From Chitinispirillaceae bacterium (lineage in GTDB: Bacteria > Fibrobacterota > Chitinivibrionia > Chitinivibrionales > Chitinispirillaceae): a DNA stretch of 64,000 bases. Below the pieces are notes generated by a model. It did not search any database. It was not told where the DNA came from and was given only the letters and a program-made list of their open reading frames with translations. A program made the translations under genes and the position numbers. The DNA is taken from positions 1 through 64,000 of the forward strand of contig JAFGIN010000054.1 in NCBI GenBank assembly GCA_016929595.1, in the 5' to 3' direction. Positions 29,194 through 31,580 of this stretch are shown piece after piece; position 1 is the first letter of the stretch; the number at the start of each line of letters is the position of its first letter.

Positions 29194-29220
29194 TAAAGTT
29201 TCCTCATTTTATACCGATAT
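29194..29220 (+). promoter_or_regulatory. Sigma-28 (FliA) promoter of the flagellin locus
   Basis: TAAAGTTT (29194-29201), 11 nt spacer, ACCGATAT (29213-29220). The -35 and spacer match the sigma-28 consensus TAAAGTTT-N11-GCCGATAA exactly, and the -10 differs at two positions. Transcription should start near 29227-29230 on the plus strand, placing the first AGGGGAAG hairpin about 35 nt into the RNA. I found no comparable promoter directly before the two flagellin genes, so they may be read from here. Confidence 0.8.
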
Positions 29221-29263: not shown

Positions 29264-29321
29264 ATCAGTAGGGGAAGCACTGATTATAATGCTGATCGGA
29301 TGTACACAAGGGAGGTCAGTA
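29264..29321 (+). promoter_or_regulatory. Leader hairpin 1 (AGGGGAAG loop) plus RBS
   Basis: ATCAGT (29264-29269) pairs with ACTGAT (29279-29284) around loop AGGGGAAGC. The ribosome binding site AAGGGAGGT (29308-29316) lies 30 nt beyond the AGGGGAAG and 5 nt before ATG 29322. It is the same architecture as the leaders of both flagellin genes, yet the ORF it serves is not a flagellin. Confidence 0.65.
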
Positions 29322-29747
29322 ATGATCTGCAATAATCGCATCTATTCTTCATTTCTCAGTCAATTTGTACGTCGAAGTCATTATTCACTTTCCAATTGCG
29401 CAATCCTTAACAGTCTCATAATTATCCGTACTTCATTCGATAGCAGTTATCGGGAACGCTGTCGGAATCGCGATCGATCCTTAATTACTGTGTTTTTCGA
29501 TACCGATACCGATGCCGATGCCGATACCGATACCGATACCGATACCGATACCGACACCAATACCGATACCGATACCGACACCGACACCGAAGTAAAAACC
29601 GGTGCATTGTATTATGGGACAGTTAAAAATTCTTACTTCGGTATAATTATAAAACCGGTTCTTTTTAAATCCAGTTTTGACTTAGAGGATAATTTTTTAA
29701 ATCTACTACGAAGGAGGTTGAAGTGCAATAAACCTTTACTATTATAA
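29322..29747 (+). other. Non-flagellin ORF behind flagellin-type leader
   Basis: The ATG at 29322 has an ideal ribosome binding site and opens a 141-codon frame. The product starts MICNNRIYSSFLSQFVRRSH, with no relation to flagellins. It then crosses the hexanucleotide array as a (Asp-Thr) repeat and ends KCNKPLLL at TAA 29745. Neither half looks like a natural protein. I infer that a former flagellin coding region was replaced or overrun by repeat DNA, leaving promoter and leader intact; a translated short product remains possible. Confidence 0.4.
29498..29590. repeat. Hexanucleotide tandem repeat (CGATAC/CGACAC)n
   Basis: About 15 head-to-tail copies of CGATAC with GCC and ACC variants. 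The region just before it (GATAGCAGTTATCGGGAACG, AATCGCGATCGATCC) is also rich in GATxxC words, as if older copies had decayed. The unit is six bases and uninterrupted, so this is a microsatellite and not a CRISPR array. Copy-number change by slippage would not shift a reading frame through it. Confidence 0.9.
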
Positions 29748-29771
29748 CATATAGTGAACGATTGGCAGTCT

Positions 29772-29825
29772 CAGGGAGGGGAAGCCCTGCAGTCTGTTAA
29801 AAATACAACACACAAGGGAGGTTTT
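29772..29825 (+). promoter_or_regulatory. Leader hairpin 2 (AGGGGAAG loop) plus RBS, flagellin gene 1
   Basis: CAGGG (29772-29776) pairs with CCCTG (29785-29789) around the 8-nt loop AGGGGAAG (29777-29784). The ribosome binding site AAGGGAGGT (29814-29822) begins 30 nt after the loop and lies 3 nt before ATG 29826. The stem sequence is unrelated to leaders 1 and 3, while loop, spacing and RBS are kept. Confidence 0.7.
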
Positions 29826-30671
29826 ATGATTGGTGGAATCGATTATTCATCAATTCGTCTTGCATCAGCGTACAACATTAACAATCAACTGCTATCAGAT
29901 ACTTTAAGCAGAATTGCTACCGGAAAAAAGTTCTCAAAACCCAGTGATAATTTTACAGGATTCATCCGCATCAATCAGATGCAGAATGACATTGACGGTT
30001 ACCAGTCAATTAAAGAAAACCTGACAATTGCCAAGGGAATCACCGCTATTGCATCTGAAGTTGGAAATACAGTTTATGAAGATTTAACAGAACTTAAAGA
30101 TCTTGTCACCGCATATTATAACACATCAGACAGCGAAGATGACAATGCGGCAAGGAGTGAAATTGAATCAAAATTCAGCATCCTTAAAACTAGCCTGACA
30201 AACTATATCGCAGACAACAAATACAATGGTACATCAGTTTATAGTGCAGCAACTCTTGACAGCATAAAAATTGACCCAAATGGTACAGGATCACTTTCTA
30301 TTGCATTTGAAGCGACTGATATAGCTAACCCATCTACTCCGACACTGACTGGTTTTGTCGTAGGCAACGAAACTCAAACAGCCGATAACAGAGATGCTGA
30401 TCTTGAAATAATAAACAACCAACTAACAGCAGCAACTAACTATCTTTCCAAAGCAACATCGTACGACAGATCGATTGATAGACAGATCAGGATTTCTGAT
30501 ACAATAATTCAAAGTAAAGAGTCAGCGATTTCATTTATTTCTGATATCGATGAAATCTCAGAATTGAACAGAAAAACCGATCTTCAGATTCGACAGGAGG
30601 CATCTATTGCAATGATGGCCCAGGCGCAATTGCTCAGGAGTTCAATAACCAAACTATATGACCGGATGTGA
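29826..30671 (+). CDS. Flagellin-like protein (small, copy 1)
   Basis: I start at ATG 29826, directly behind AAGGGAGGT; the upstream extension of the frame reads through the leader hairpin. The 281-aa product has flagellin termini. The N-terminal helix SSIRLASAYNINNQLLSDTL is followed by SRIATGKKFSKPSDNFTGF (the LSSG-x-R-I-x-x-x-x-D-D-x-A-G counterpart). The C-terminal helix ends QEASIAMMAQAQLLRSSITK. The central region is only ~80 residues, so the protein is essentially D0/D1 with a minimal surface domain. It should form filament subunits exported by the flagellar type III system, or act as a minor or cap-proximal flagellin. It is in tandem with a paralogue 90 bases downstream. Confidence 0.85.
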   Translation: MIGGIDYSSIRLASAYNINNQLLSDTLSRIATGKKFSKPSDNFTGFIRINQMQNDIDGYQSIKENLTIAKGITAIASEVGNTVYEDLTELKDLVTAYYNTSDSEDDNAARSEIESKFSILKTSLTNYIADNKYNGTSVYSAATLDSIKIDPNGTGSLSIAFEATDIANPSTPTLTGFVVGNETQTADNRDADLEIINNQLTAATNYLSKATSYDRSIDRQIRISDTIIQSKESAISFISDIDEISELNRKTDLQIRQEASIAMMAQAQLLRSSITKLYDRM

Positions 30672-30697
30672 TGATGTAAAACAGTTGTATACGCTGC

Positions 30698-30761
30698 AGT
30701 AGAAATGAGGGGAAGCGTTTCTGCTACCGCACAGATTCATAACATCAAAGGGAGGTGCACT
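30698..30761 (+). promoter_or_regulatory. Leader hairpin 3 (AGGGGAAG loop) plus RBS, flagellin gene 2
   Basis: A 10-bp stem (30698-30707 with 30716-30725, including two G-U pairs) presents exactly the loop AGGGGAAG (30708-30715). The ribosome binding site AAGGGAGGT (30748-30756) begins 33 nt after the loop, and ATG is at 30762. It lies between two tandem flagellin genes in a 90-nt gap, so it can act in a shared transcript. Confidence 0.72.
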
Positions 30762-31580
30762 ATGATTACCGGAGCATCACTTACGGTTACTTATGGCCAT
30801 TTGACTTCATTCTACAAAAGAAATGAAAATAATCTTGGTCTGTCCCTGCTTCGCCTTGCCAGCGGCAAGAGAGTCGAACAACCGTCTGACAACATTCCTG
30901 ATTACTTCAATGCAGCCAGACTGAAACAATCGGATTCGATACACCAGGACGTACACTCAAAACTCAATGAAGCTCTTTCCAGAACAGAGATCGCTGAAAC
31001 TGCCGGCACCTATATTTTTGATGATCTGACCTCCGCTAGAAATCTGATTGACAGTTATTACAGCGACAGTACTACTGAGGATGAAAAGGAAGCTATAAAA
31101 GTCGAATTTTCACAAATACTCCGGCAGGTTAGATCTGTTCTGGACAATACCTGGCTTGATGGAAAACTGGTGATTGATGTTTCGGGAGATACTCCGTTTG
31201 CCCACGCACCGATTAACCCTTCAGATCCGGATGAAACGCTTGCGCTATACTTTACAGATAAACAGATCCCCGATATAGACGGGCTCACCCTTGGAACTAC
31301 AACTTACGAAACAGAATCACAGGCTCTGCAGACAGAACTTAACAAAGCAGCATCATTTATTTCAAAAGTAAGTGTTTACCAAAGAAGCGTAAACGCATTC
31401 ATCAATATCAATGAAAGAAGCAGATATGCCGGACAAACTATCTATTCGGGAATTACCGCCTGCGATACAGGAATGGAGATGATCAAAGCAATGAACCTGA
31501 GCATCAGAAACCAGTCTTCACTCTCCATGATGGCACAGGCAAATTTGTCAAGAGCATCGGTACTGAGGCTCGTTTCTTAG
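30762..31580 (+). CDS. Flagellin-like protein (small, copy 2)
   Basis: I start at ATG 30762 behind AAGGGAGGT. The 272-aa product repeats the plan of its neighbour: N-terminal helix with NENNLGLSLLRLASGKRVEQ and PSDNIPDYFNAARL; a middle of ~90 residues (DGKLVIDVSG, LYFTDKQIPDIDGLTLGT); and C-terminal helix NQSSLSMMAQANLSRASVLR. The identity to copy 1 is concentrated in the helices. Both genes lack long variable domains. Its stop (31580) faces the dxs stop (31588) with 7 bases between them. The two flagellins and the orphan leader form one locus under the sigma-28 promoter at 29194. Confidence 0.85.
   Translation: MITGASLTVTYGHLTSFYKRNENNLGLSLLRLASGKRVEQPSDNIPDYFNAARLKQSDSIHQDVHSKLNEALSRTEIAETAGTYIFDDLTSARNLIDSYYSDSTTEDEKEAIKVEFSQILRQVRSVLDNTWLDGKLVIDVSGDTPFAHAPINPSDPDETLALYFTDKQIPDIDGLTLGTTTYETESQALQTELNKAASFISKVSVYQRSVNAFININERSRYAGQTIYSGITACDTGMEMIKAMNLSIRNQSSLSMMAQANLSRASVLRLVS

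Follow-up and report, generated by a model that had tools for sequence, protein, structure and literature searches.

Three genes that stand in a row in the 64-kb stretch of DNA analysed here (the window) are each preceded by a hairpin that presents the same loop, AGGGGAAG, at a short distance from the same ribosome-binding site (RBS), AAGGGAGGT. A first-pass annotation, made from the letters, described these as three flagellin-type leaders carrying a selected RNA structure and proposed that CsrA reads both sites as a translational switch. The locus raises the question of what recognizes two short motifs that are shared by hairpins with unrelated stems. The answer that we consider probable, on the basis of genome comparison, is a trans-acting small RNA (sRNA) with two C-rich loops, which would contact the leader loop and the Shine-Dalgarno (SD) sequence and repress accessory flagellins.

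The leader element in the window and in relatives

The positions of the hairpins, the lack of similarity between their stems and their common loop were all confirmed (Table 1). AGGGGAAG is found at positions 29270, 29777 and 30708, and AAGGGAGGT at 29308, 29814 and 30748. The gap between the two motifs is 30 nt in copy 1, 29 nt in copy 2 and 32 nt in copy 3, a range of 29-32 nt rather than the 30-33 nt first described. The loop of copy 1 comprises nine bases, AGGGGAAGC, and its stem continues outwards with CATTAT/ATAATG. The extended RBS of the leaders reads (CACA)CAAGGGAGGT(G). Within the window, AAGGGAGGT occurs at these three sites only, and none of 100 shuffled sequences gave three occurrences. 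In the 6.6-Mb host genome (224 contigs, 95% complete), the pattern AGGGGAAG-N22..45-AAGGGAGG has three matches, all of them in the window, compared with one for a control pattern. When the loop was kept unpaired, the arms of copies 1, 2 and 3 gave -9.5, -15.8 and -12.2 kcal/mol; these energies were equalled by 0, 0 and 2 of 300 arm shuffles, respectively, and by no combination with foreign arms.

Table 1. Positions of the leader features in the window and of the sRNA gene elsewhere in the host genome.
Feature	Position	Strand	Basis
Sigma-28-type promoter TAAAGTTT-N11-ACCGATA, 5' of copy 1	29194..29219	+	Sequence reading; FliA-family sigma factor in genome
Copy 1 hairpin ATCAGT/ACTGAT, loop AGGGGAAGC; predicted sRNA docking site 1	29264..29284	+	
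Copy 1 extended RBS CACAAGGGAGGT; predicted sRNA docking site 2	29305..29316	+	
141-aa ORF behind copy 1, no known family, contains 6-bp tandem repeat	29322..29747	+	
Copy 2 hairpin CAGGG/CCCTG, loop AGGGGAAG	29772..29789	+	
Copy 2 extended RBS CACAAGGGAGGT	29811..29822	+	
Accessory flagellin behind copy 2, 281 aa, Flagellin_N, weak Flagellin_C	29826..30671	+	
Copy 3 hairpin AGTAGAAATG/CGTTTCTGCT, loop AGGGGAAG	30698..30725	+	
Copy 3 extended RBS TCAAAGGGAGGT	30746..30757	+	
Accessory flagellin behind copy 3, 272 aa, Flagellin_N	30763..31580	+	
sRNA gene core, host genome	G000:C220:76682-76778 (other contig)	minus	

Flagellin-family genes, as judged by Pfam matches, stand directly behind copies 2 and 3 only, so that the description as flagellin-type leaders holds for these two and fails for copy 1. 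The 141-aa ORF behind copy 1 has no Pfam match and no credible similarity to flagellin (best tblastn E value 0.08); a degenerate flagellin at this place is thus unsupported, and copy 1 is probably an orphan leader. The same ORF contains the hexamer CGATAC in tandem (15.5 copies, positions 29498-29590), which translates as a DTDTDT run; the CCGATA recurring in this repeat resembles many sigma-28 -10 boxes. The three leaders probably form one operon, in which the sigma-28-type promoter is followed by copy 1, the 141-aa ORF, copy 2, a flagellin, copy 3 and a second flagellin. Since the two window flagellins are only 27% identical to each other and the stems are unrelated, recent duplication of one segment is excluded.

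The relatives available for comparison are mostly metagenome assemblies. A loose pattern search of 100 of them returned many chance matches together with recognizable leaders before flagellin-like ORFs, and 22 leaders were aligned; the letters of loop and RBS in this alignment are partly fixed by the selecting pattern, whereas the stems are free of such selection. With the alignment anchored on the loop, 69.5% of the stem cells are paired, compared with a shuffled mean of 50.9% and with 30-49% when slid. Changes on both sides of a stem pair number 47, against a shuffled mean of 22.4 (0 of 500 shuffles as high). In an arm-swap control, the native arms total -321 kcal/mol, while the best of 20,000 permutations reached -216 kcal/mol. 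The leader stems co-vary as RNA stems, and the shuffle and arm-swap controls support the view that compensatory changes have maintained a selected RNA structure.

A covariance model built from the leaders (R1, with rough E-values) found matches in most of the order's flagellated genomes, frequently at two or three neighbouring genes, and the element is retained upstream of flagellin-like genes across the order. Of the 38 flagellated genomes covered (Fibrobacterota, Chitinispirillum lineage), 26 have leaders before flagellin-like genes. The named carriers are Fibrobacterota, namely Chitinispirillum, Chitinispirillaceae, Chitinivibrionales and records deposited as Fibrobacter sp. or Fibrobacteres bacterium; the R1 search found no element in the Fibrobacter-type family f8. 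Weak R1 matches in four genomes that have no sRNA (G002, G008, G009 and G012; E at least 0.27) were inspected and revealed no leader before a flagellin. Loop and RBS are both present at 45 of 62 accessory-type flagellin ORFs and at none of 32 canonical MRIN-type ORFs, in a sample enriched by the search that fetched it, and some flagellin-like genes in accessory-flagellin clusters are without the loop. Leaders of family f7 carry two or three GGGGAA hairpins each. At L127 (G024:C2) and L129 (G030:C46), two to three complete leaders follow one another in tandem at ~125-130 nt with no intervening gene; they stand at the start of accessory-flagellin clusters and, like copy 1, are possible decoys.

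A predicted small-RNA gene complementary to the leaders

In addition to the leaders, R1 matched in each genome a single orphan copy that is not followed by a gene. These copies were first considered as leaders of unannotated genes, which was rejected: no ORF follows them, and in the host genome the next gene lies on the other strand. When 18 orphan copies were aligned with their flanks, TATCGG and ACTTTAG appeared downstream at a fixed distance, and an A-run and a hairpin upstream. On the opposite strand, this is a sigma-28-type promoter, with TAAAGT (or a one-base variant) followed by CCGATA at equal spacing in 18 of 18 cases, and an intrinsic terminator lies on the same strand. The host genome encodes a FliA-family sigma factor (262.9 bits; cut-off 189.6). 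The transcript predicted from this strand is ~135 nt long in the host genome and consists of a closing stem, a hairpin GCAC-CUCCCUUGU-GUGC, a hairpin with a CUUCCCC loop and the terminator. Exactly 22 columns of the sRNA are invariant, and these are CACCTCCCTTGTGTG and CTTCCCC. The second hairpin has co-varying arms (their native pairing was equalled in 0 of 20,000 re-pairings), and two compensated changes and one wobble were found at the outer pair of the first. RNAalifold on a MAFFT alignment recovered only hairpin A because hairpin B varies in length; the arm-swap test was used instead. In family f7, the terminator of the sRNA adds another TTCCCC loop, and it looks as though contacts had been gained by leaders and sRNA alike.

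A CsrA sponge of the CsrB/RsmZ type, with several GGA hairpin loops, was ruled out, as the transcribed strand presents C-rich loops. In Rfam 15, no family matched the 18 sRNA loci at or above its gathering score; the leaders likewise had sub-threshold matches only, and these fell on the 6-bp repeat. Neither element was found described in the literature on CsrA/FliW leaders, sigma-28 sRNAs, C-rich loops and Fibrobacter RNA motifs (subscription journals lay outside this coverage), which agrees with the initial view of the leader element as undescribed. In most genomes, a gene for a TPR protein (L094:1321-2085 minus, and its counterparts) directly precedes the sRNA gene in the same orientation, and this conserved synteny hints at a link between the two.

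The sRNA segment CACCUCCCUUGUGUG complements CACACAAGGGAGGUG of the RBS, and CUUCCCC complements GGGGAAG of the leader loop; the two segments are ordered as antiparallel pairing with a leader requires. When the window was scanned with the complete sRNA core by RNAduplex, long gapped duplexes drowned the signal; this uninformative scan was replaced by one that used just the two complementary segments. On both strands of the window, the three leaders rank first, second and third of 25,562 positions, with -47.5, -45.6 and -42.8 kcal/mol, the next best position reaching -33.3 kcal/mol. For 38 leaders from 17 genomes, pairing with the sRNA of the same genome averages -26.7 kcal/mol at the SD site and -16.1 kcal/mol at the loop, and 38 of 38 leaders pair better with it than with 50 shuffled versions; this complementarity is partly guaranteed by the search and is not independent evidence on its own, as the sRNA was discovered via the leader model. 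Evidence outside this bias comes from the strand-specific promoter and terminator, the stem covariation, the single copy per genome and the distribution. Compensated base changes between sRNA and leader were sought and none was convincing: such a change could not be shown because the core is invariant, and the edge positions do not co-vary. One sRNA change in G037 has no match in the leaders of that genome. The sole other CACAAGGGAGG of the host genome (L136, G000:C135:7424-7434 minus) stands right before an ORF starting MTKNKVMEIILDCIENSRAAVLATVDHNGHPDMRWV; it lacks the GGGGAAG loop and would therefore probably be only a partial match to the sRNA.

A second covariance model (R2), built from the sRNA without its promoter and terminator, found one strong copy in each of 24 genomes. 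Six of these were outside the training set; one copy is cut by a contig end, and the promoter pair is present in all five testable cases, two of them with one base changed in CCGATA. Among the 38 flagellin-bearing genomes (host included), 24 have both sRNA and leaders, two have leaders only, none has the sRNA only and 12 have neither; in three f7 genomes the leaders scored below the threshold and were accepted by inspection. The two genomes with leaders only, G033 and G036, are fragmented (940 and 710 contigs, 86 and 77% complete). The co-occurrence gives a Fisher value of 3e-8 by genome, which relatedness inflates, and of 6e-4 by genus. In G013 and G031, which are sisters of carriers, flagellin, leaders and sRNA are all missing together. 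A composite sRNA pattern searched in the contigs of 84,980 species returned 16 records, of which 15 are named Fibrobacterota and the remaining one shares the promoter sequence of G039.

Proposed mechanism and related systems

We infer that sigma-28, the flagellar sigma factor, directs expression of the sRNA and that the sRNA encounters the leader RNA, the loop AGGGGAAG and the extended RBS being two docking sites of this one sRNA. The CUUCCCC loop would kiss the exposed GGGGAAG loop of the leader as the first contact, and a second segment of the sRNA would cover the SD sequence over up to 15 bp and block 30S binding. The predicted outcome is repression of the accessory flagellins without Hfq, for which the host genome (95% complete) has no match. 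Since the window operon and the sRNA both seem to have sigma-28-type promoters, the two would form a feed-forward loop by which the accessory flagellins are delayed or limited. More speculatively, the orphan leaders (copy 1 and the tandem ones in G024 and G030) could act as sponges. The repeat would thus become a closed circuit, with one predicted sRNA, defined flagellin targets and exact contact bases.

Several known systems share parts of this design. The sRNA sX13 of Xanthomonas acts without Hfq and has been likened to the C-rich-loop sRNAs of S. aureus and H. pylori (PMC3771888); the present sRNA is similarly predicted to be highly structured, with C-rich loops matching G-rich motifs near translation starts, a likeness of structure and target motifs. 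Unlike in sX13 (PMC3771888), one leader has two fixed sites that are each matched by a different loop, the regulon seems limited to accessory flagellins and the promoter is of the sigma-28 type. A flagellar sigma factor also drives UhpU, MotR, FliX and FlgO of E. coli, which affect flagellin levels (PMC10578931). However, the E. coli sRNAs derive from UTRs, the work on them involved Hfq, and the pairing sites of MotR and FliX are in coding sequences (PMC10578931), whereas here a free-standing sRNA gene matches the loop and SD sequence of flagellin leaders in a genome with no detectable Hfq. Campylobacter jejuni likewise has sRNAs within its flagellar cascade, CJnc170 (FlmR) and CJnc230 (FlmE), one of which is FliA-dependent, but CJnc230 is reported to act directly on flgM and Cj1387c rather than on flagellin leaders (PMC11187230). 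No description of a regulatory RNA was found for this lineage and no Hfq was found in the host, and the system may offer a natural case of two-point loop recognition without this chaperone.

CsrA and other readings of the two sites

A search of the genome for fliW and csrA found both, csrA lying directly downstream of fliW and next to a canonical flagellin. The canonical flagellins of the relatives carry classical ANGGA hexaloops, for example CGGC-AAGGAU-GCCG, with an RBS of the form ACATGGAGG, and that of the host at C191 carries GATCAAC-ACGGAAC-GTTGATC. The main flagellins are therefore likely to be under CsrA control. Canonical flagellins at L176, L182 and L186 (G037, G038 and G039), with ANGGAU hexaloops (GGC-AAGGAU-GCC and variants) and the RBS AACATGGAGGTT, are good candidates for CsrA targets.

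CsrA might also act together with the sRNA, binding a third site and aiding or hindering the sRNA on loop and SD sequence. An ANGGA hairpin, usually GAC-AGGGAU-GUC, lies between loop and RBS in 29 of 47 accessory leaders, compared with 6.8 expected from shuffling, and PMC7652899 cites work in which CsrA promotes an sRNA-mRNA complex. In the window, however, copies 2 and 3 lack this middle hairpin and copy 1 has a degenerate form of it, and so it is not essential. We regard such double control as a serious possibility that falls somewhat short of being likely. Since the window copies are without the middle hairpin, a two-site CsrA switch is plausible for their neighbours and at most a second layer for the element itself. 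Combining these observations for the Fibrobacterota lineage, one can tentatively picture flagellin paralogs with two post-transcriptional addresses used in parallel, although we doubt that every part of the picture is right: CsrA-FliW would read the ANGGA hairpins of canonical flagellins; a sigma-28-driven, Hfq-independent, double-loop sRNA would read the G4 loop and extended SD sequence of accessory ones; orphan leaders would be sponges; and CsrA would gate access of the sRNA where the codes meet. Canonical and accessory flagellins seem to be under different regulators, which suggests a route by which a bacterium with many flagellins could set the composition of its filament.

The sRNA could pair as predicted and yet activate or stabilize the mRNAs, or be titrated by abundant flagellin leaders, and the orphan leaders do resemble sponges. 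The pairing, however, takes in the SD core and is up to 15 bp long, which normally blocks initiation, and no structure masking the RBS was observed in the leaders, so that an activating or titrated sRNA appears unlikely.

The proposal of the first-pass annotation, in which CsrA binds the GGA of the AGGGGAAG loop and of the RBS to block translation until FliW releases it, would make the sRNA irrelevant. In its favour, csrA and fliW are neighbours in the genome and each site has a GGA, the first in a hairpin loop and the second over the SD sequence in AAGGGAGGT, and a two-site leader with hairpin loop and SD sequence is also found in hag/flaA under CsrA-FliW (PMC7652899, PMC4894983). Unlike in hag/flaA (PMC7652899, PMC4894983), the loop reads GGGGAA instead of ANGGA, an sRNA matches the conserved bases, and the classical ANGGA hexaloops sit on other flagellins and on a separate hairpin. 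CsrA needs an A upstream of the GGA (SELEX consensus RUACARGGAUGU; PMC7652899), whereas in the window loop the A precedes GGGG, not NGGA, and the sequence departs from A(N)GGA. Moreover, CsrA binding leaves unexplained the letter-by-letter conservation of the loop and of 15 bases around the RBS, as well as the complementary sRNA and its co-occurrence with the leaders. As the main mechanism at this locus, CsrA alone is quite improbable. Finally, a double-stranded DNA operator bound by a protein in both orientations would also make opposite-strand copies look complementary, but it is scarcely credible, because the arms of both elements co-vary as RNA stems, the position of the leader motif is tied to the RBS and the start codon, and the orphan has its promoter and terminator only on the complementary strand. 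Repression by the two-loop sRNA remains our preferred reading.

The GGGGAAG motif also occurs in other settings. At L132 (G043:C201), in another family of the phylum, a sigma-28-type promoter, a GGGGAAG hairpin and AAGGGAGG precede a 96-aa ORF that is not a flagellin; R2 found no sRNA in G043. A third class of flagellin (L008 = G000:C97, L050, L108, L177, L183 and L192) has GGGGAAG within ~10-15 nt of a sigma-28-type -10 box, so that the motif falls at the very start of the mRNA; no hairpin accompanies it. This arrangement is present even in G034, in which GGGGAAG follows a sigma-28-type promoter, yet no sRNA was detected by R2; there, the motif may serve another function or have an older partner.
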